From assembly GCA_902363805.1 (NCBI GenBank), contig CABJBF010000003.1, positions 386,564-450,563 of the forward strand: DNA of 64,000 bases. Reading direction: 5' to 3'. Shown here one piece after another: positions 9,469 to 19,873 of this stretch. Source of the stretch: Eubacteriaceae bacterium (GTDB taxonomy: Bacteria > Bacillota > Clostridia > Lachnospirales > Lachnospiraceae). Under the pieces are notes generated by a model. The model was not told where the DNA came from. It saw only the letters and a program-made list of their open reading frames with translations, and searched no databases. The stretch's first letter is position 1. Each line of letters begins with the position of its first letter. Position numbers and translations under genes: made by a program.

Positions 9469-10497
9469 TTATCTGCTTATAAAATCATCTACATTATTAA
9501 TATCAACTTTTTTATATTGGGATACATAATATTTCCCACTGTCCAAGTTATGTTTTTTCAAATCATTTCCTTTAAAAATATCCACAACTAATTTTGCTAT
9601 TTCCATAGACTGGTCTTCCTTATCGTTGTACACAGTCCCCTGCATTTGACCTTCTTTTACTGCAATTAATGCATCATTAAGTCCATCTATTCCACATATA
9701 ATAGGCCATTCATCCTCGCCATAACCTGATTTTTTATAAGCTTCCACTGCACCAATCGCCATCTCATCATTATTTGAAATAATCATTTCTATATTGTTGC
9801 CATACTGATCTATTAGCTGTGTCGTTCTATTTTCTGCCTGTCCTCTGTTCCAATCAGCAAATTGGTAACTAAGTTTTTCTAAATTAATTCCATTATTAAT
9901 AATTGTTTTTACTGAACAGTCTGTTCTGCTTATTGCATCCTGATGCCCGGCCTCACCCTCTAGCAAAACATATTGTATTTTTCCATCATTATTTTTATCT
10001 ACATTTTTATTCGCTTTTATATAATCTGCTGCAATCTGTCCCTGCATTACTCCTGACTGTTCTGCATCACACCCAACATAATATAATTTGTTCCATTGCA
10101 TCAAATCCTCTTTTACCGGTTCTCTGTTAAAGAAAATAATTGGAATATTATTCTGTCTTGCCAGTTTAATAATTTTACCCGGAGCTGTTCTGTCAACTAA
10201 ATTAACACACATTATATCGCAACCTGCATCAATCATTTCCTCAACAACTTCATCCTGATCACGCTGACTATCATCTCCATTTTTTTCAGACACTATTATT
10301 CTAAAATTATCATTTTCCATTGACTTTAGATTATCTTTAAGTTCCTGTGTCATTGCATTTATGAATGGATCATCCTGCGTGTATGTTACAACACCTACCC
10401 TAAGTGTTTCATTAAAATTTTTTTCTTTTTTCTGACATCCTGTAAAATTGTAAATCAATACAAATGCCATTATTAAACTAACAATTCTTTTATTCAT
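9469..10497 (-). CDS. Galactose/glucose-binding lipoprotein of the sensor operon (canonical MglB fold)
   Basis: A 342-residue substrate-binding lipoprotein with lipobox FTGC at residue ~21. The E. coli MglB contact residues appear in normal order: Asp and Phe in YTQDDPF, Asn in VNLVD, the GHQDAISR block (His, Asp, Arg), Asn in NNDEMAIG, Asp in GIDGLNDA, and Asn in TVYND. The calcium loop DKNNDGKIQ is also present. It overlaps the upstream binding-protein gene by 8 bases and belongs to the kinase/regulator operon, so I infer it presents galactose or glucose to the Cache kinase. It is the best internal comparator for the permuted MglB at 18599-19873. Confidence 0.88.
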   Translation of the reverse strand: MNKRIVSLIMAFVLIYNFTGCQKKEKNFNETLRVGVVTYTQDDPFINAMTQELKDNLKSMENDNFRIIVSEKNGDDSQRDQDEVVEEMIDAGCDIMCVNLVDRTAPGKIIKLARQNNIPIIFFNREPVKEDLMQWNKLYYVGCDAEQSGVMQGQIAADYIKANKNVDKNNDGKIQYVLLEGEAGHQDAISRTDCSVKTIINNGINLEKLSYQFADWNRGQAENRTTQLIDQYGNNIEMIISNNDEMAIGAVEAYKKSGYGEDEWPIICGIDGLNDALIAVKEGQMQGTVYNDKEDQSMEIAKLVVDIFKGNDLKKHNLDSGKYYVSQYKKVDINNVDDFISR

Positions 10498-11464
10498 AAG
10501 AATACAAAAACCTTTCTATTTCATTAGAAAATAAATCATTTTGATAAAGTTCTTTTGAATCAACATCATAGCCTTTCATGGTGTAAAATGAAATATTAAT
10601 TTTCTTACTTATTTCTTTTACACTATTGTATCCAATCTCATATCCATCAGGAATAATAAGACATTTTACATTGCCATGCTGAAGCAAATTTAATGATTTC
10701 ATACTATTTCCAATACCATATATCTGCGCTCCGTTATATATTCCATTATCACTTTTTTCGCCTAAGTCATCTAAAGAATAATTATCCATAATAACTAAAT
10801 AATCTACTTTATCCTTGCCATTTACAACATCACAAATATCCTGATCCGTTTTACCATTATATGTCCAACCTATATCTATGTTAGTCCCTTCTATGGCATC
10901 ACAAAATCCTTTATATTTGTCAATGGTTTCTTCTTTCGCATACTGGGCAAAAACAATGCCTGCTTTCTTATTTTCTTTTTCGCCTGAATCTGCTATCAGT
11001 CTCTTTCCTATCTCATATCCGATATTGTAGTGATTAGGTTTTATTACCGGATAGCCTGATTCACCATCATTCCCACTCACAAAAACATCTTCTGTAATTA
11101 ACATGAATGGTATTTTGCCACATACGTTTTTTAATTGTGTTCTCGTATCGCTTCCTGGTGCAGGGCAAATAATAAACCCATCTATATTATTTTGCTTCTG
11201 CTCATTTATTAATTCGATTTCATCTTCTACTTCCTCAATATCATCTGTGTTACATATTATTAAATGTATTTCATTTGCCTTAGCTGAATCTTTTAGTCCT
11301 TTAATAAGTGCCTCCCAATTTTTATCTCCTGAATTTGGTATAATTACTGCCACTTTTTTTTCAGGAGTATTCTGGTCAAATATTTTAGTAATAAAAAATA
11401 TTGCCATAACACAAAGTAATATTTCTGCAATAAGAAAGGCTATTTTATTTTTTTTCATTTTCAA
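10490..11464 (-). CDS. Membrane-anchored periplasmic-binding-protein-like sensor subunit
   Basis: A 324-residue type I binding-protein fold (KKVAVIIPNSGDKNWEALIKG, IDGFIICPAPGSDTRTQL, DYLVIMDNYS). The N-terminal hydrophobic segment (residues ~9-26) has no lipobox Cys, so it is probably held by an uncleaved membrane helix. It overlaps the kinase gene by 20 bases. Binding proteins placed between a YesM-like kinase and a transporter operon act as external sensor subunits in Clostridia (for example XylFII-LytS). That role is inferred here and the ligand is unknown. Confidence 0.78.
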   Translation of the reverse strand: MKMKKNKIAFLIAEILLCVMAIFFITKIFDQNTPEKKVAVIIPNSGDKNWEALIKGLKDSAKANEIHLIICNTDDIEEVEDEIELINEQKQNNIDGFIICPAPGSDTRTQLKNVCGKIPFMLITEDVFVSGNDGESGYPVIKPNHYNIGYEIGKRLIADSGEKENKKAGIVFAQYAKEETIDKYKGFCDAIEGTNIDIGWTYNGKTDQDICDVVNGKDKVDYLVIMDNYSLDDLGEKSDNGIYNGAQIYGIGNSMKSLNLLQHGNVKCLIIPDGYEIGYNSVKEISKKINISFYTMKGYDVDSKELYQNDLFSNEIERFLYSYE

Positions 11465-13400
11465 CCTTCCTTTCTACATTTTGTTTTTCTAAATTTGTGA
11501 GATTACTTTCATTATATGGAATTGCAGGTATATGAATTGTAACCTTTGTTCCTTCGTCAGCTTCACTTTCTACACTTAATCCATATTCATTGCCAAACAT
11601 TAGCTTAATTCTTGAATGAACGTTTATGACACCAACTCCTGAACCATGTTTAGGTGTTTTATTATTATCCTTAAGAATATTTTCAACCTCTTCTTCTCTC
11701 ATTCCCATTCCATTGTCTTCAACGGTTATAAAGATTTCATTATCTATCTTTTTACCTCTGACAATTATTTCACCGTCATCATCTATATCCATATTTCCTA
11801 CACCATAATATATAGCATTCTCTAACAATGGCTGAATAACAAGTTTCACAATACAATAGTCATTAATTTCATCATCTATTTCAAATCTGATTTTGAATCG
11901 TTCTTTATATCTTGCCATCTGTATATTCATATAGCTTCTGCTGTGTTGTATTTCATCAGATATTTTTATGATTGTTCTTCCTTTAGACAAACTTATACGC
12001 AATAACTTAGCAAGTTCTGATATCATAAACACAGCTTCTTTATTTTTATTTGCCTCAACCATCCATGTAATTGATTCGAGCGTATTGTATAAGAAATGCG
12101 GATTAATCTGACTTTGCAATGCATCCATTTCGCTTTTTCTTAGTTCAGTCTGCTGCCTGATTATTTCCTGCATTAACTCTTCTATCTGTTCATATGATTT
12201 TCGCACTGAATATCCTAAATGTCTTATTTCCGATGAACCACCTATATAAATATCATTTTTTCCACCTGCTTCATACGCCTTAACAGATTCATTCAGGTTA
12301 AGTATTGGTCTTGATATTTTTCTTGATATAATTCTGTTTACCTCAAGAAGCATCATCACTAAAATAATTACAGTCGTAATTATATAATATCTGAATTGCT
12401 TTATACTCACTGTCTGTACCTTGTCCGGAATTACACCTACTACCTTCCATCCTGTGTATGAAATACTGCTTATTATATAATTATTTTTATGTCCATTAAA
12501 CTCTAATTCATGTATTCCTTCTTCACATTTTGCCATTTTATTATTATTTTCCTTAAAAATACCCCTGTCTATCTCAGTTATTCTAGGATGATAGATAATT
12601 TGTCCATCTGAATCGCATAAATAATAATAAATTCCATTTGAATCTTTATTGATTCTATCTAAAGTTTCTTCAATGATTGAATATTTCATATCCACCAGTA
12701 GTACTCCACTTACCGGCTTTTCCCCATCATTTACATCCACCGAACGGCTCAGCGACACAACCCGATAATATTTATAAGCACCATCTTCAAACAGATTCTG
12801 TATATGAGGAATAGAAAAATGAATATTTTCAATTTCACTTTTAGCCATACTAAACCAACTCTGACTTTTAACATCAACATTATCTTTTTCAGATGCTATA
12901 GGCTCTGATGCTATCAGATTTCCGGAATTGTCATATAGTGCCATACTTTGAATCTTATCTGAATTAATTTCATACAATAAACTAAACTGTCTGTTAAACT
13001 CCTGACTCGAAACATCATATTGCTGAACTATATTGTAATTTGCAGCATTTGAAATCTGTCTTATATTTAATAAGTCAGAGTCCATTTTATCTACTATACT
13101 GTCTATAATTCCCTGTGTACTTGATATTAAAGTTTCTTTATTTGAAATTTTAAATCTATTATAAATAAGCATTCCCATAACAATAGTTGTCACTATTGTT
13201 AACGTTGTAAAGACCGCCATGATAATAGATTGAATGTCTAATCTAATAAATTCGCCACGGTGAAACCAGCTTCGAAATCTTTTTATTTTTACATTTTTGC
13301 TTTCTTTTTTTTTAACTTTATTCAATCTTCCCATATTCCCTGTATATATTATGATGTTTGGGGCAAAAGCCCCGATTTTGATGACTACGGATTGTTTCAT
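11445..13400 (-). CDS. YesM-type Cache sensor histidine kinase
   Basis: A 651-residue kinase of the LytS/YesM class. Two membrane helices (~52-75 and ~350-370) bracket a ~270-residue extracellular Cache sensor. A HAMP-like linker follows (ISRPILNLNESVKAYEAGG). The His-kinase box is SQINPHFLYNTLESITWM, and the ATPase has N (QPLLENAIYYG), G1 (VEDNGMGM) and G2 (GSGVGVINVHSRI) boxes. The first ~40 residues are a basic cytoplasmic tail; an internal ATG (MGRLNK, residue 23) is a possible alternative start. It is paired with the YesN regulator 18 bases upstream and overlaps the binding-protein gene downstream. Confidence 0.9.
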   Translation of the reverse strand: MKQSVVIKIGAFAPNIIIYTGNMGRLNKVKKKESKNVKIKRFRSWFHRGEFIRLDIQSIIMAVFTTLTIVTTIVMGMLIYNRFKISNKETLISSTQGIIDSIVDKMDSDLLNIRQISNAANYNIVQQYDVSSQEFNRQFSLLYEINSDKIQSMALYDNSGNLIASEPIASEKDNVDVKSQSWFSMAKSEIENIHFSIPHIQNLFEDGAYKYYRVVSLSRSVDVNDGEKPVSGVLLVDMKYSIIEETLDRINKDSNGIYYYLCDSDGQIIYHPRITEIDRGIFKENNNKMAKCEEGIHELEFNGHKNNYIISSISYTGWKVVGVIPDKVQTVSIKQFRYYIITTVIILVMMLLEVNRIISRKISRPILNLNESVKAYEAGGKNDIYIGGSSEIRHLGYSVRKSYEQIEELMQEIIRQQTELRKSEMDALQSQINPHFLYNTLESITWMVEANKNKEAVFMISELAKLLRISLSKGRTIIKISDEIQHSRSYMNIQMARYKERFKIRFEIDDEINDYCIVKLVIQPLLENAIYYGVGNMDIDDDGEIIVRGKKIDNEIFITVEDNGMGMREEEVENILKDNNKTPKHGSGVGVINVHSRIKLMFGNEYGLSVESEADEGTKVTIHIPAIPYNESNLTNLEKQNVERKVENEKK

Positions 13401-13418
13401 GCTACACGTTGTTTTATA

Positions 13419-15023
13419 TTATTTATTTAATCTCTCATTTCTGTACTTTGATGGAGATACTCCGAATTTCTTCTTAAACACATAGCTAAAATAATTTGCA
13501 TCTAAATATCCTACCTGCTCAGCTATTTTATAGCTTTTTTCATTTGTATCAAGTATCAATCCGGCTGCGATATCCATTCTGTAATCTGTAAGATATGTAA
13601 CAAATGATTTACCTACTTCTTTCTTAAATACAGATGAAAAGTAAGAATTTGATACTCCCATTAAAGAGCATACTTTATCCAGTGATAAATCAGGTTCCAT
13701 ATACCTGTCTGTTACTATATTTTGTGCATCATTAACCAAACTTCTGGATTTACTGTTTCGAACACTTTTTAATTTTTCACTTACTCCTAATGAACATTTA
13801 ATAAGCCAGTTTTTCAAAGTGCTTTCGTCCATCTGAGGCACCCTTTCGTAAGGATTATTTATATCTCCTAAAAAGTCATTAAAATCTATAAAATTATTGG
13901 CACAAAATCTATAAAATGCCCCTACCATTTCCATAATCACTAAATTATACTGACTTACAGTATTTGCATTTTTATGTAATTTTTCAATTTCTTTACTAAC
14001 CGCATCTTCTATTGATTTGTTGTCTCCTAAGTATATCGCTTTAAACAAATCATGCATTTTAGAATCTTCTGACTGTAAAGTCATATTCTGCTCATTAGGT
14101 GCAATTTCTTCAATATTAATTGCCCTGTTTGTTCCATATAAAACTCTATATGATACTGCTTCTCTTGCTCCTTCATAAGAATTGTTTATGTTTAATATGT
14201 TATCACATACTCTTCCTATACCTGCTGTAACAACAGCACCAATAACTCTGTTAACCCATTTGCAGAATTTATCACAAATATCCGTAAACTCTACCATTTT
14301 TTCTTTAGAGCTTAATTCAACAATTAGTACTGTATTCCCCAAATAAATAAATTCTTTGCAATTAAATTTTTTCGCAATTCTTTCTTTTATTTCTCTTTCT
14401 ACAGACATTGATAATAGCAAGGGTTCCATATTTTCAGGAACATGATGTGTAGATGTATGGAAAACCACACAACAATAGAACGGACCCTTTAAATCTATTT
14501 TATAGGAATCGACAAATTTTACATATTCTTCTTCATCAACTCTTCCTTCAATCAACGAAACAAACAAATTTGTCTGAAGAATTGGGAGTACATCATTAAA
14601 ATAATTTTCAAGTTTCTGAACATTTAATTTTTCTTCTCTTTCCAAATCTAGTGAGTTTTTTACTCTCTTTAAACATTCAGTTAATTCGTCAGAATTTATC
14701 GGTTTTAACATATATTCTTCAACTTCAAGATGAACTGCCTCTTTTGCATATTCAAATTCGTCAAATCCGGTAAATATAATTATGTGAATATTTCTATAAT
14801 CATCATTAAGCCTTTTGGACAACTCAAGTCCATCCATATATGGCATTTTAATATCTGTAATAACAACATCCGGTTGAGTTTTTTCGACAAGTTCTAATGC
14901 CTTTACTCCATTTGTTGCACTTCCGACAACTTCAAAGCCTAACTCATTCCACGCTATTTTTTGTTCAATAACATCAATAACTTCTGCCTCATCGTCAACC
15001 AGGATAACTTTATATTTATCCAT
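13419..15023 (-). CDS. YesN-type AraC-family response regulator
   Basis: A 534-residue regulator. The N-terminal receiver domain (residues 1-125) has IVDDEAEV-type acidic residues and the phospho-acceptor in DVVITDIKMPYMDG near 55. A ~290-residue middle region follows, and the C-terminal AraC double helix-turn-helix ends in the classic YLDANYFSYVFKKKFGVSPSKYR. First gene of the sensor operon. Its position between the sensor proteins and the mglBAC operon suggests it activates mglBAC when the kinase detects sugar. Confidence 0.92.
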   Translation of the reverse strand: MDKYKVILVDDEAEVIDVIEQKIAWNELGFEVVGSATNGVKALELVEKTQPDVVITDIKMPYMDGLELSKRLNDDYRNIHIIIFTGFDEFEYAKEAVHLEVEEYMLKPINSDELTECLKRVKNSLDLEREEKLNVQKLENYFNDVLPILQTNLFVSLIEGRVDEEEYVKFVDSYKIDLKGPFYCCVVFHTSTHHVPENMEPLLLSMSVEREIKERIAKKFNCKEFIYLGNTVLIVELSSKEKMVEFTDICDKFCKWVNRVIGAVVTAGIGRVCDNILNINNSYEGAREAVSYRVLYGTNRAINIEEIAPNEQNMTLQSEDSKMHDLFKAIYLGDNKSIEDAVSKEIEKLHKNANTVSQYNLVIMEMVGAFYRFCANNFIDFNDFLGDINNPYERVPQMDESTLKNWLIKCSLGVSEKLKSVRNSKSRSLVNDAQNIVTDRYMEPDLSLDKVCSLMGVSNSYFSSVFKKEVGKSFVTYLTDYRMDIAAGLILDTNEKSYKIAEQVGYLDANYFSYVFKKKFGVSPSKYRNERLNK

Positions 15024-15338: not shown

Positions 15339-16991
15339 TTATTTCTTCTGTACATACTTGAGACAGTCAAGAGTAACTGCTGCAAGAATGATGATACCTT
15401 CGAAAATGAACTGAAGGTTTGTATCAATACCAAGGATTGTAAGTGAGTATGTAAGAGATGTAAATATAAGAACACCTGTTACAACACCTGAAATCTTACC
15501 AATACCACCTGTAAATGAAACACCACCTACTACGCAGGCTGCGATAGCATCCATGTCCCATCCTTGTCCATAAGCTGCACTACCTGAACCAACCATTCTG
15601 TTACATTCAAGCCATGAACCAAATCCATAAAGGATACCTGCAAGAATGAAAGCTCCCATTGTTACTTTGAATACTGAAATACCTGAAACTGCTGCTGCTT
15701 CCGGGTTTCCACCTACTGCGAATAAATTCTTTCCAAAAGTTGTCTTATTCCAAATGAACCAAACAACTGCTATTGCAACTATTGCCCATAAAATAATTGT
15801 TGGGAATCCTCCAATCTGAGGAATAAATATATTTGGAATTGCTGCATCGATTGCACCAAATGAAACACCCTTTGTTGCGTAAGTTACAAGACCAAATATA
15901 ATAAGCATGTTGGCCATAGTTGATATGAACGGATGCATTTTGAACTTAGCCATAAAGAATCCGGCTATCATTGCAAAACATGTTGTAAGGATTATACAAA
16001 CAACTAAAGCTAAAATTGCTCTTGCGCTCGGAGCCATATTTGAAAAATCAAATATATGTCCAAATACGCCACCTGTGTTTATGCCGTTATGCATTATGAT
16101 TGTTGATGCAACCATACCCATACCAACCATACGACCAACCGAGAGGTCAGTTCCTGTCAAAAGGATTAAGCCTGCAACACCGAGGGCAAGGAACATTCTA
16201 GGTGATGCCTGCTGTAAAATGTTAAGTATATTTGTGTATGTAAGGAGTTGGGTATTTTTAACAACCGGAGTAATTGCGCATAACCCAATAAATATCAAAA
16301 TGATAACAATATACAAACCATTTTTATATAGGAACTGTGACAAGTTGAAAGTATATTTATAATTTTCAATTCGCTGCTCTGTTTTCTGAGCAAATGTATA
16401 TTTTGATGTACGCAATAAATCAATTAAATGATACTTATGCATAAATGCATCATGTTTTCTATCTTTAATTTCCTGACACTTTGACTCGTGAGTCATTTTT
16501 GAATCATACAATTTATTTTTATATACATATTTTTCATCTTTAATTTCATCTGAATCAGACAATTTGCTTAAAGCATTTTCATGTTCTGTCTTCAATTCAG
16601 CGCAAGTCTTTTCATACTTGTTTTTTTCATCAATTTTTTCGCTTTCACAACTAGCTACTACTCTATTGTAATATTGGCTGTTGTAATTCTTTGAAAGATA
16701 ATCTTCAGCCTGGGCAATAAGTTTTGATACCTTATCTTTATTTGAATTTTCAACTGCTTTTGCCTGTTCTAAAGCCTTCTTATCACTTTCAATAATTTTT
16801 GCTTTTTCTTCTTTAGTTAAATTTTTATTTTCTTTTACGATAGCAATATGATTCTTTAAACTTCTGACTTTATCAGAACCATCTGCGCGTAATTCGTCAA
16901 TCTGACTTTGTATTTTACCTACATATTCATCTATCGGCTTAAGAAGTTTTTCTTCTTCCTCAGCTGAAAGAATAACGCCTTTTTCTGCCAT
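15339..16991 (-). CDS. mglC: Galactoside ABC transporter permease MglC with a long N-terminal coiled-coil extension
   Basis: The C-terminal ~325 residues (from ~226) are a normal MglC/RbsC permease with about ten membrane helices. Conserved blocks are GVAGLILLTGTDLSVGRMVG, the EAA-like region KTTFGKNLFAVGGNPEAAAVSGI, and IAACVVGGVSFTGGIGKI. The first ~220 residues are an extra, highly charged, predicted cytoplasmic coiled coil with three Cys, absent from E. coli MglC (336 residues in total). The reading frame is continuous and starts at a sensible ATG 19 bases after mglA, so this is a real fusion. The extension might brace the ATPase or bind a regulator. Confidence 0.9.
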   Translation of the reverse strand: MAEKGVILSAEEEEKLLKPIDEYVGKIQSQIDELRADGSDKVRSLKNHIAIVKENKNLTKEEKAKIIESDKKALEQAKAVENSNKDKVSKLIAQAEDYLSKNYNSQYYNRVVASCESEKIDEKNKYEKTCAELKTEHENALSKLSDSDEIKDEKYVYKNKLYDSKMTHESKCQEIKDRKHDAFMHKYHLIDLLRTSKYTFAQKTEQRIENYKYTFNLSQFLYKNGLYIVIILIFIGLCAITPVVKNTQLLTYTNILNILQQASPRMFLALGVAGLILLTGTDLSVGRMVGMGMVASTIIMHNGINTGGVFGHIFDFSNMAPSARAILALVVCIILTTCFAMIAGFFMAKFKMHPFISTMANMLIIFGLVTYATKGVSFGAIDAAIPNIFIPQIGGFPTIILWAIVAIAVVWFIWNKTTFGKNLFAVGGNPEAAAVSGISVFKVTMGAFILAGILYGFGSWLECNRMVGSGSAAYGQGWDMDAIAACVVGGVSFTGGIGKISGVVTGVLIFTSLTYSLTILGIDTNLQFIFEGIIILAAVTLDCLKYVQKK

Positions 16992-17009: not shown

Positions 17010-18518
17010 CTACAAATATTTAGCACTAAGTCTTAATAATTCTTCCTGATTTGTTTCTTTTGTATTAACTATTCCTGCAAGATGTCCGTTAGACATAACA
17101 CCAATACGATTTGTAATTCCTAAAATCTCAGGCATTTCAGATGAAACAACTATTATTGTTTTTCCCTGCTTTGCCATGTTAATTATCAGTTCATAAATTT
17201 CGTATTTTGCACCAACATCAATACCTCTTGTAGGGTCATCCATCATAAATACATTTGGTGAACGTTCAAGCCATTTACCAAATATGGCTTTCTGCTGATT
17301 TCCTCCTGAAAGATTTGAAATCATATCATCAGGTCCCATACATTTAGTATGCATTACCTTTATTTCTTCTGCAGTTGCACGAACCATATCATCCTTTGAC
17401 AATGCAATGCCTCTCTTGTAATGGTTCATATTTGCAATCGTTGTATTAAATGTAATGTCACCCTTAAGGAAAAGACCATTCGCTTTTCTTTCTTCTGTTA
17501 TCAAAGCAAATCCATGATCCATGGCATCTTTAGGCGATGAAAAATTCATTATCTTTCCATCATAAATTACATTACCGGCTGCTCTTGTTCTCATACCAAA
17601 TATAGTTTCAAGGAGTTCTGTTCGACCGGCTCCTACTAATCCATAAAATCCAAATATTTCACCTTTTCTTATGTCAAATGAAATATTTTGAAGTTTCGGT
17701 GCATACTTAGTAGACAAGTTTTCAACTGAGAAAATTACTTCTCCCGGTTCATTATCTACAGGTGGGAATCTGTTATCAAGAGAACGACCAACCATTGCTG
17801 ATATAAGTTCATTCATGTTTGTATCTTTACTGTCCTTTGTCATTACCAGACTTCCATCTCGTAAAACTGAAATTTGATCACATATTTCAAATATTTCATC
17901 CATCTTATGTGAAATATATATTAATGAAATTCCCTGACTCTTTAACTGTCTCATCATTTTAAACAGCTTTTCTACTTCAGGTGCTGTTAATGATGATGTT
18001 GGTTCGTCAAGTACTATTACTTTTGAGTTATATGATATAGCCTTTGCAATTTCACACATCTGTCTCTGTGATACAGACATTTTCTTCATTGGCTGTGTCA
18101 TATTAACTGTAATTCCTAATTTTCTAAATAAATCGGAAGCTTCTTTTTTCATTCTACCTTCGTCAACCACGCCTAATGAGTTCTTAGGATATCTGCCTAA
18201 AAACAGGTTGTCAACAACGCTTCTTTCGAGACACTGATTAAGTTCCTGATGAACCATAGCAACTCCATTTTCAAGTGCGTCTTTAGGTCCGGAAAAATTA
18301 ACTTCCCTGCCATCTAATATTATAGTTCCTTCGTCCTTTTGGTAAGTTCCGAAGAGACACTTCATCATTGTCGATTTGCCTGCTCCATTTTCACCCATAA
18401 GGCCCATTATTGATCCCGGTTTAACATTTAAATTAATATGTTTCAGAACCTTATTTCGGCCGAATGATTTACTCATGCCATTAATCGACAAGATGTATTC
18501 ATTCTTATCTTCCACCAT
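17010..18518 (-). CDS. mglA: Galactoside ABC transporter, twin-ATPase subunit MglA
   Basis: A 502-residue ATPase with two nucleotide-binding domains, typical of sugar CUT2 importers. The first has Walker A GENGAGKST (~42-50), signature MSVSQRQMCEIAKAI and Walker B KVIVLDEPTSSL. The second has the degenerate GLVGAGRTE, LSGGNQQKAIFGKWL and FMMDDPTRGIDVGAKYEIY. It energises import through MglC of the sugar delivered by MglB. An intercistronic hairpin separates it from mglB. Confidence 0.95.
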   Translation of the reverse strand: MVEDKNEYILSINGMSKSFGRNKVLKHINLNVKPGSIMGLMGENGAGKSTMMKCLFGTYQKDEGTIILDGREVNFSGPKDALENGVAMVHQELNQCLERSVVDNLFLGRYPKNSLGVVDEGRMKKEASDLFRKLGITVNMTQPMKKMSVSQRQMCEIAKAISYNSKVIVLDEPTSSLTAPEVEKLFKMMRQLKSQGISLIYISHKMDEIFEICDQISVLRDGSLVMTKDSKDTNMNELISAMVGRSLDNRFPPVDNEPGEVIFSVENLSTKYAPKLQNISFDIRKGEIFGFYGLVGAGRTELLETIFGMRTRAAGNVIYDGKIMNFSSPKDAMDHGFALITEERKANGLFLKGDITFNTTIANMNHYKRGIALSKDDMVRATAEEIKVMHTKCMGPDDMISNLSGGNQQKAIFGKWLERSPNVFMMDDPTRGIDVGAKYEIYELIINMAKQGKTIIVVSSEMPEILGITNRIGVMSNGHLAGIVNTKETNQEELLRLSAKYL

Positions 18519-18544
18519 ATCTACACTTCCTCTTTCTTTTTTAA

Positions 18545-18573
18545 AGAAGGGAGGCTTTATCTGCCACCCTTCT
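18545..18573 (-). promoter_or_regulatory. Intercistronic stem-loop between mglB and mglA
   Basis: On the minus strand AGAAGGG-T-GG pairs with CC-T-CCCTTCT across a short loop, 25 bases after the mglB stop. Stem-loops here usually protect or partly terminate the transcript, so the binding protein is made in excess over the transporter. That role is inferred. Confidence 0.6.
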
Positions 18574-18598
18574 TATTAAATTATCCAAACTTACAATT

Positions 18599-19873
18599 CT
18601 ATTTTGAAAGAATTGATGTATATGAAGCTGCATTATCTGTTTTAACCATGTTAATTGCAAATGCGTCATATTCGCTTGGGTTACCTAAACGGTTAGTAAT
18701 ATTTGATTCTGTCTGTCCGTCACCACCGATGTAATCTACTTTAAGGTTAAGAAGATCATCATATTTTTCAAGTAATGGCTGATATGTTGAACTAAGGAAG
18801 TTATCTGATGCATTGTAAATGTTAAGCCATACTTTCTTTTCTGCGCTCTTGCCTGAATCAAGCTGATTTGAAACTTTGTCATAAATCTTTGTTGAATCTG
18901 TAAAGTCTTTATAGTTATCTGCTGTTACAGCAACGTTTAATGCGTAATATGATCTTTCTTCTTCACTGTATCTGTAATCTTCATCCTTTGTGAGGCAGTT
19001 ACCTGCATCATCAGGTGTTCCTATACCTGTATCAATATCTACACCATCAAGTGCGTTACGAAGAACTCTAAGTGTAAGATATGCCTGAACATCTGCATGC
19101 TGTGAAATTGTTCCGCCGTATCCTTCTGCTATAGCTGCTACTGCATCACTATTTGCATCGTATCCAAATGTTGGAACCTTGTTATCTTTAGCCCATGCAT
19201 TAAACATTGACATTCCCATACCATCGTTATTTGAAACAACTACATCAATCTGCTTTCCGAATGAAGCTGTCCATGTTCCAATTGCATTTCCTGCTGTTGC
19301 TGCATCCCATGTTGCTCCTGCTGAGTTCTTCATTTCCTGTGATGCTAATTCTCTGATTGTGTATGTCTTTCCGTTAACCTCTAAAGTTGCATCCTTTACA
19401 GCCTTTGATGTTCCATCAACATTTGTTCCTGCTGGTGATGAATCAACGCTTCCATCTTTTTCAACTGCTGTTCCAAGTGCTGAACGAACACCACATGTAC
19501 GAGCGATTGAATCGTTATGTCCGATATCTCCGATTGCAAGAACATAACCGATTACTCCATCTCCGTTTCTATCAATTTTATCGATGTTCTTCTTAATGTA
19601 ATCAAGTACCATCTGTCCCTGAAGTTCTGCACCCTGGTTAGCATCAAATCCTACATAATATGTATCTTTGTTGAAATTAAGTGCTGTTGTATCAAGTTCA
19701 CCTGTTGAGCTGTTTGATGGCTGACGGTTAAACCAACATAATGGTTTATCCTTATTTGCCACTGAACTTGCTGAACCTGAGCTACTTGAGCCTCCGCCAG
19801 ATGTTCCACAACCTACCATTGATACTCCGAGCACTGCGGCTACTAAAACTGTTAATAATTTTGACTTTCTCAT
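18599..19873 (-). CDS. mglB: Galactose-binding lipoprotein MglB, circularly permuted
   Basis: A 424-residue secreted lipoprotein (lipobox VGC, Cys22, Gly/Ser linker). After the linker it starts in the middle of the usual fold: KPLCWFNRQP (~43-52) matches canonical VPVVFFNKEP. Lobe 1 then continues, with calcium loop DRNGDG (101-106) and GHNDSIAR (His119, Asp121, Arg125). Lobe 2 follows with Trp189, Asn216 and Asp239, and ends at VTADNYKDF. After a ~20-residue linker the missing N-terminal part appears at the C-terminus (~348-424): VWLNIYNASDNF (Asp357, Phe359 for E. coli Asp14, Phe16) and FAINMV (Asn408 for Asn91), ending at SYTSILSK. Only E. coli Asn256 is changed (Gln258). Start has AGGAGG; the stop is clean. 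Lobe 2 also has a ~40-residue insertion near 138-185. Confidence 0.9.
   Translation of the reverse strand: MRKSKLLTVLVAAVLGVSMVGCGTSGGGSSSSGSASSVANKDKPLCWFNRQPSNSSTGELDTTALNFNKDTYYVGFDANQGAELQGQMVLDYIKKNIDKIDRNGDGVIGYVLAIGDIGHNDSIARTCGVRSALGTAVEKDGSVDSSPAGTNVDGTSKAVKDATLEVNGKTYTIRELASQEMKNSAGATWDAATAGNAIGTWTASFGKQIDVVVSNNDGMGMSMFNAWAKDNKVPTFGYDANSDAVAAIAEGYGGTISQHADVQAYLTLRVLRNALDGVDIDTGIGTPDDAGNCLTKDEDYRYSEEERSYYALNVAVTADNYKDFTDSTKIYDKVSNQLDSGKSAEKKVWLNIYNASDNFLSSTYQPLLEKYDDLLNLKVDYIGGDGQTESNITNRLGNPSEYDAFAINMVKTDNAASYTSILSK

Follow-up and report, generated by a model that had tools for sequence, protein, structure and literature searches.

In this work we analyze a 64,000-nucleotide stretch of DNA (the window) from Eubacteriaceae bacterium (assembly GCA_902363805.1, contig CABJBF010000003.1, positions 386,564 to 450,563), and find that the open reading frame (ORF) at 18599..19873 on its minus strand encodes a 424-amino acid (aa) MglB-type sugar-binding protein, probably a lipoprotein, with a circularly permuted order of parts. 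As judged from the ORF, its Pfam matches and its alignments, the gene is almost certainly a member of the Type Ic (TpMglB-2) family of circularly permuted MglB proteins, a kind that is common in Lachnospiraceae and their relatives. Computation establishes in what order the parts stand, which residues are equivalent to those of E. coli MglB, that the structure matches TpMglB-2 and which genes lie nearby. An earlier note on this DNA had taken the gene to encode a naturally permuted form of an MglB-type lipoprotein that binds glucose/galactose, and knew of no natural one described; the Pfam layout, rotation test, contact equivalences and TpMglB-2 match reported here bear out this reading, and the implied novelty is incorrect, since the permutation of Treponema pallidum Tp0684 was published in 2016 (PMC4990184). 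That this sugar-binding protein occurs naturally in circularly permuted form is already known and established, and the form is widespread. What the window usefully adds is some support for a true permutation over acquisition of the displaced segment from another gene, and a testable point, a possible mutual dependence of the permuted MglB and an extension of its partner permease MglC.

The ORF starts with ATG, the good start reported earlier, and opens with a putative signal peptide (19808..19873; minus strand, as for all features given here) ending in a lipobox-like SMVGC motif, read by eye at residues 18-22, in which Cys22 is the likely lipidated residue. Methionine at the -3 position of a lipobox is atypical, and the MglB proteins of E. 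coli and Salmonella are periplasmic and not lipidated. Residues 40-327 (18893..19756) make up the canonical MglB part from N-lobe strand 4 to the canonical C-terminus, equivalent to E. coli mature residues 78-309. Eight of the ten sugar contacts lie in this part, as do the calcium residues. The first block of the fold had been claimed to lie displaced at the C-terminus, and residues 344-424 (18602..18844), which include PF18610, D357 and F359, are indeed equivalent to E. coli mature residues 1-77. PF13407 (Peripla_BP_4) matches residues 68-277 and covers only positions 93-256 of its 258, while PF18610 (Peripla_BP_7) matches residues 345-415 over its complete length (1-71 of 71), with 142.5 bits against a curated cut-off of 36.8. 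With PF13407 starting at profile position 93 and PF18610 standing at the end, the usual opening part of the fold is missing from the front. The Pfam family PF18610 covers the displaced block, and no difference between it and the window protein was seen. Structure prediction, a check suggested in the earlier note, agrees with this layout: an AlphaFold2 (AF2) model based on 46 alignment rows, treponemal relatives included, has residues 344-424 as strand-helix-strand-helix-strand-helix and structurally matches TpMglB-2. This model comes from a second run; the first, based on 19 close relatives alone, was of poor quality (predicted local distance difference test, pLDDT, of 49.6) and was set aside.

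For the rotation scan, the mature protein was rotated and then globally aligned to E. coli MglB. The alignment score rises from 111.5 without rotation to 211.0 once residues 335-344 lead (the ten best points listed); rotating at every third residue, 135 rotations in all, gives a median of 99.5. The non-permuted paralogue that had been pointed out nearby (9469..10497) scores 485.5 unrotated against the same protein and is beaten by no rotation. Identities in the rotated alignment amount to 78 of 224 positions in the core and 22 of 74 in the block. Every one of the ten sugar contacts of E. coli MglB has an equivalent in the window protein, and nine are identical: D14 (D357), F16 (F359), N91 (N49), H152 (H119), D154 (D121), R158 (R125), W183 (W189), N211 (N216) and D236 (D239). 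The exception, already listed as such in the earlier note, is Asn256, whose place is taken by Gln258.

The same arrangement has been described in crystal structures. Brautigam et al. (2016) reported that Treponema pallidum Tp0684 (TpMglB-2) has a topology permuted circularly with respect to that of E. coli MglB, with an N-lobe strand order of 5-4-6-1-2-3 instead of 2-1-3-4-5-6 (PMC4990184). They identified this topology in Gram-positive bacteria as well, including many commensals of the mammalian gut, and suggested that the permuted proteins be classed as Type Ic / Cluster Bc (PMC4990184). The window protein has the arrangement that marks Type Ic, with N-lobe strands 1-3 at its C-terminus and strand 4 at its N-terminus. 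The TpMglB-2 structures (PDB 5JX2, 6BGC and 6BGD) have the same order over their full length, at 42% identity to it, and phmmer aligns residues 40-421 of the query with residues 19-384 of the TpMglB-2 chain in a single collinear stretch that includes the connection before the block. TpMglB-2 also shares the change of E. coli Asn256 to Gln, according to the contact table of that study, as well as a similarly reduced calcium site, and its gene likewise lies next to those of an ATPase and a permease; it is a lipoprotein, as the window protein probably is (PMC4990184). It differs in carrying Asn311 at the place of E. coli Asp14 (PMC4990184), where the window protein has Asp357. TpMglB-2 comes from Treponema pallidum, whereas the closest named relatives of the window protein are Lachnospiraceae. 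Because the permutation, the Gln change and the Gram-positive gut homologues all appear in PMC4990184, the protein belongs to a family that is already known, and comes from bacteria among which that family had been noted before; we found nothing against its membership in Type Ic. E. coli and Salmonella MglB (galactose/glucose-binding protein, GGBP) has the same fold parts, nine of ten contacts identical and the same MglA and MglC partners, but its order is canonical, and the E. coli protein is without the fourth hinge and the extended connection of TpMglB-2 (PMC4990184).

The recurrence of this order bears directly on whether an assembly or sequencing error could have rearranged a canonical gene, the refutation contemplated in the earlier note. 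We compared 88 loci, selected for their resemblance to the query or for the presence of PF18610, at least four of which repeat the same places; every one aligns in collinear order across more than 300 residues, and three of them (L057, L073 and L078) are titled as complete genomes. With the same order present in these independent genomes and in the TpMglB-2 crystals, and no evidence found in support of an error, such an origin is vanishingly improbable.

Several results qualify the assignment to a permuted MglB. The NCBIfam MglB equivalog NF011924 matches the protein in two stretches with 86.3 bits, far from its cut-off of 420, a cut-off that the canonical paralogue also falls below (225.4 bits). 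Confidence in the AF2 model is uneven in the block, with means of 53-68 at residues 351-360, 381-400 and 411-424, and the other four AF2 models have pLDDT values of 52-69. The calcium loop, earlier described as kept, is kept in part: D101, N103, D105 and D210 occupy ligand positions, but compared with E. coli MglB the site is not complete, with Q140 and Q142 replaced by V107 and G109. Finally, taken as a single sequence, the block compares only marginally with E. coli MglB, with a score of 41 that 38 of 1000 shuffles reach (shuffle mean 30.4, standard deviation 4.9).

The last of these results concerns the origin of the block. Having found 13% identity between the block and the E. coli N-terminus, the 2016 authors left open its acquisition from another gene (PMC4990184), and both that identity and the marginal score above speak for a segment that was acquired in this manner and converged on the same fold, instead of a displaced MglB N-terminus. 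So do the best local match of the block to the window paralogue, which lies off the N-terminus and whose score is reached by 480 of 1000 shuffles, a weak match of the profile built from 207 close rows only (score 16.5, probability 0.7%), and the comparison with single E. coli sequences, where LsrB (18.5) nearly equals MglB (19.1). Once treponemal rows are added (326 permuted rows), however, block columns 2-68 align with E. coli MglB residues 26-93 in the canonical profile with a score of 24.6, which none of 200 column shuffles reaches (mean 13.2, standard deviation 2.4, maximum 22.4), in a comparison of shallow profiles (effective sequence numbers, Neff, of 1.6 and 2.4) with an hhalign probability of only 10%. 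Among the eight single E. coli relatives MglB ranks best, aligning over 65 columns in the right place against 40 columns for LsrB, and D357 and F359 in the block are identical to the E. coli contacts D14 and F16. Since the profile score lies above all shuffles and these two residues occupy the places of Asp14 and Phe16, the profile comparison mildly favours, without proving, a true permutation in which the block would be the displaced N-terminus of MglB; acquisition with convergence appears unlikely. Two relatives, P0012 (525 aa) and P0020 (479 aa), were considered as possible duplication intermediates and rejected, internal core stretches being repeated instead; these core repeats are either real tandem duplications or assembly errors, and both proteins were excluded from the profile sets.

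Relatives of the permuted protein are numerous. Of 7996 scored candidates, 7989 pass an E-value of 1e-3, giving at least 7989 relatives, and PF13407 and PF18610 occur together in all 120 relatives among the matches listed. On genome contigs, 435 stretches encode a relative; the best 80 of these 435 are mostly titled Lachnospiraceae or other Clostridia. We also drew 100 genomes from the family and 398 from the phylum of one relative's genome, this centre genome being counted in both draws. PF18610 is present in 10 of the 100 family-draw genomes and 2 of the 398 phylum-draw genomes, and in none of 14 control genomes. A plasmid of Treponema saccharophilum encodes a relative that is 44% identical across 90% of the query, and no relative was found by a search of viral contigs, where 37 stretches matched a pattern and none was confirmed.

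The gene belongs to an mglBAC operon, as had been recognized earlier, and is followed by mglA (17010..18518), encoding a 502-aa ATPase of a sugar ATP-binding cassette (ABC) transporter, and by mglC (15339..16991), encoding its 550-aa permease. TpMglB-2 binds glucose, preferring D-glucose, and closes through a conformational change (PMC4990184). By analogy, the window protein, probably tethered to the membrane through Cys22, would bind glucose and/or galactose between its two lobes, close on the ligand and hand the sugar over to the transporter formed by the downstream products MglA and MglC. The C-terminus supplies strands 1-3 of the N-lobe, which places both chain ends in the same lobe. Between mglB and mglA lies a predicted stem-loop (18544..18574; z -2.59, with 3 of 200 shuffles folding equally well) that has no U run after it and could stabilize the upstream mglB message.

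Adjoining the operon is a two-component locus (9469..15023) that includes two binding proteins. It comprises a response regulator with receiver, GGDEF-like and AraC-type helix-turn-helix domains, next downstream of mglC (13419..15023), a sensor histidine kinase with dCache_1, His_kinase and HATPase_c domains (11445..13400), a second sugar-type binding protein (10490..11464) and the MglB paralogue of canonical order introduced above. Of the 66 loci whose downstream sequence spans 7.9 kb or more, 57 have response regulator and histidine kinase matches there, and 54 of the 66 also match the second binding protein. Such a neighbourhood would suit a permuted MglB whose main role is that of a subunit of a sensor or chemoreceptor, and not that of the binding protein of the transporter. 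We consider this highly unlikely, given that 79 of 80 loci have an mglA match downstream in the same orientation and that the two-component locus already has binding proteins of its own. Transport and sensing may nonetheless be combined, as E. coli MglB serves in both transport and chemoreception (PMC4990184).

The MglC of the window is longer than its E. coli and Salmonella counterpart (336 aa, from the length of the coding sequence). Its first 200 residues (16392..16991) form a charged, Pro- and Gly-poor N-terminal extension that co-occurs with permuted MglB: D/E/K/R make up 39% of residues 1-215, which include a single Pro and three Gly, the first hydrophobic window is at residue 217 and the permease domain is matched from residue 254. 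No Pfam match was found ahead of residue 254, nor any significant PDB sequence match to the first 200 residues (best E-value 0.1). An MglC match is present in 75 of 80 loci, and in all 75 the extension is matched; four of the remaining five have less than 2 kb downstream of mglB. The fifth, L029, has 4.9 kb there, without an MglC match and with a partial MglA match, and is an exception to the usual order.

The two draws show the same association. In the family draw, with MglC-like matches taken at an E-value of 1e-40 and up to 14 candidates scored per genome, 28 of 100 genomes have a match; ten matches reach into the extension, nine beginning at residues 1-7 and one (G402) at residue 80, and these are exactly the ten genomes with PF18610. 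The extension is found in none of the other 18, where matches start at residue 196 or later, different extensions not having been looked for. In the phylum draw (1e-30, up to three candidates per genome), 51 of 398 genomes have an MglC-like match, and the two with the extension are the two with PF18610; it is found in none of the other 49, in which matches start at residue 185 or later, again with no search for different extensions. Because the two genes share operon and ancestry, this link reflects co-inheritance and is not independent functional evidence. We tentatively raise the possibility, itself rather doubtful, that permuted MglB and extended MglC are the two halves of a derived, co-inherited transporter subtype. 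Permutation and extension would then have been selected together, and the charged extension of roughly 200 residues ahead of the membrane part of MglC, probably helical and cytosolic, would either regulate MglA or couple uptake to the two-component system nearby. The treponemal permease gene tp0686 is described in PMC4990184 as similarly distributed, and the passages found there make no mention of an extension in its product. In T. saccharophilum, the permease encoded beside permuted MglB is 562 aa long and aligns from residue 11 of the window MglC, with 43% identity overall.
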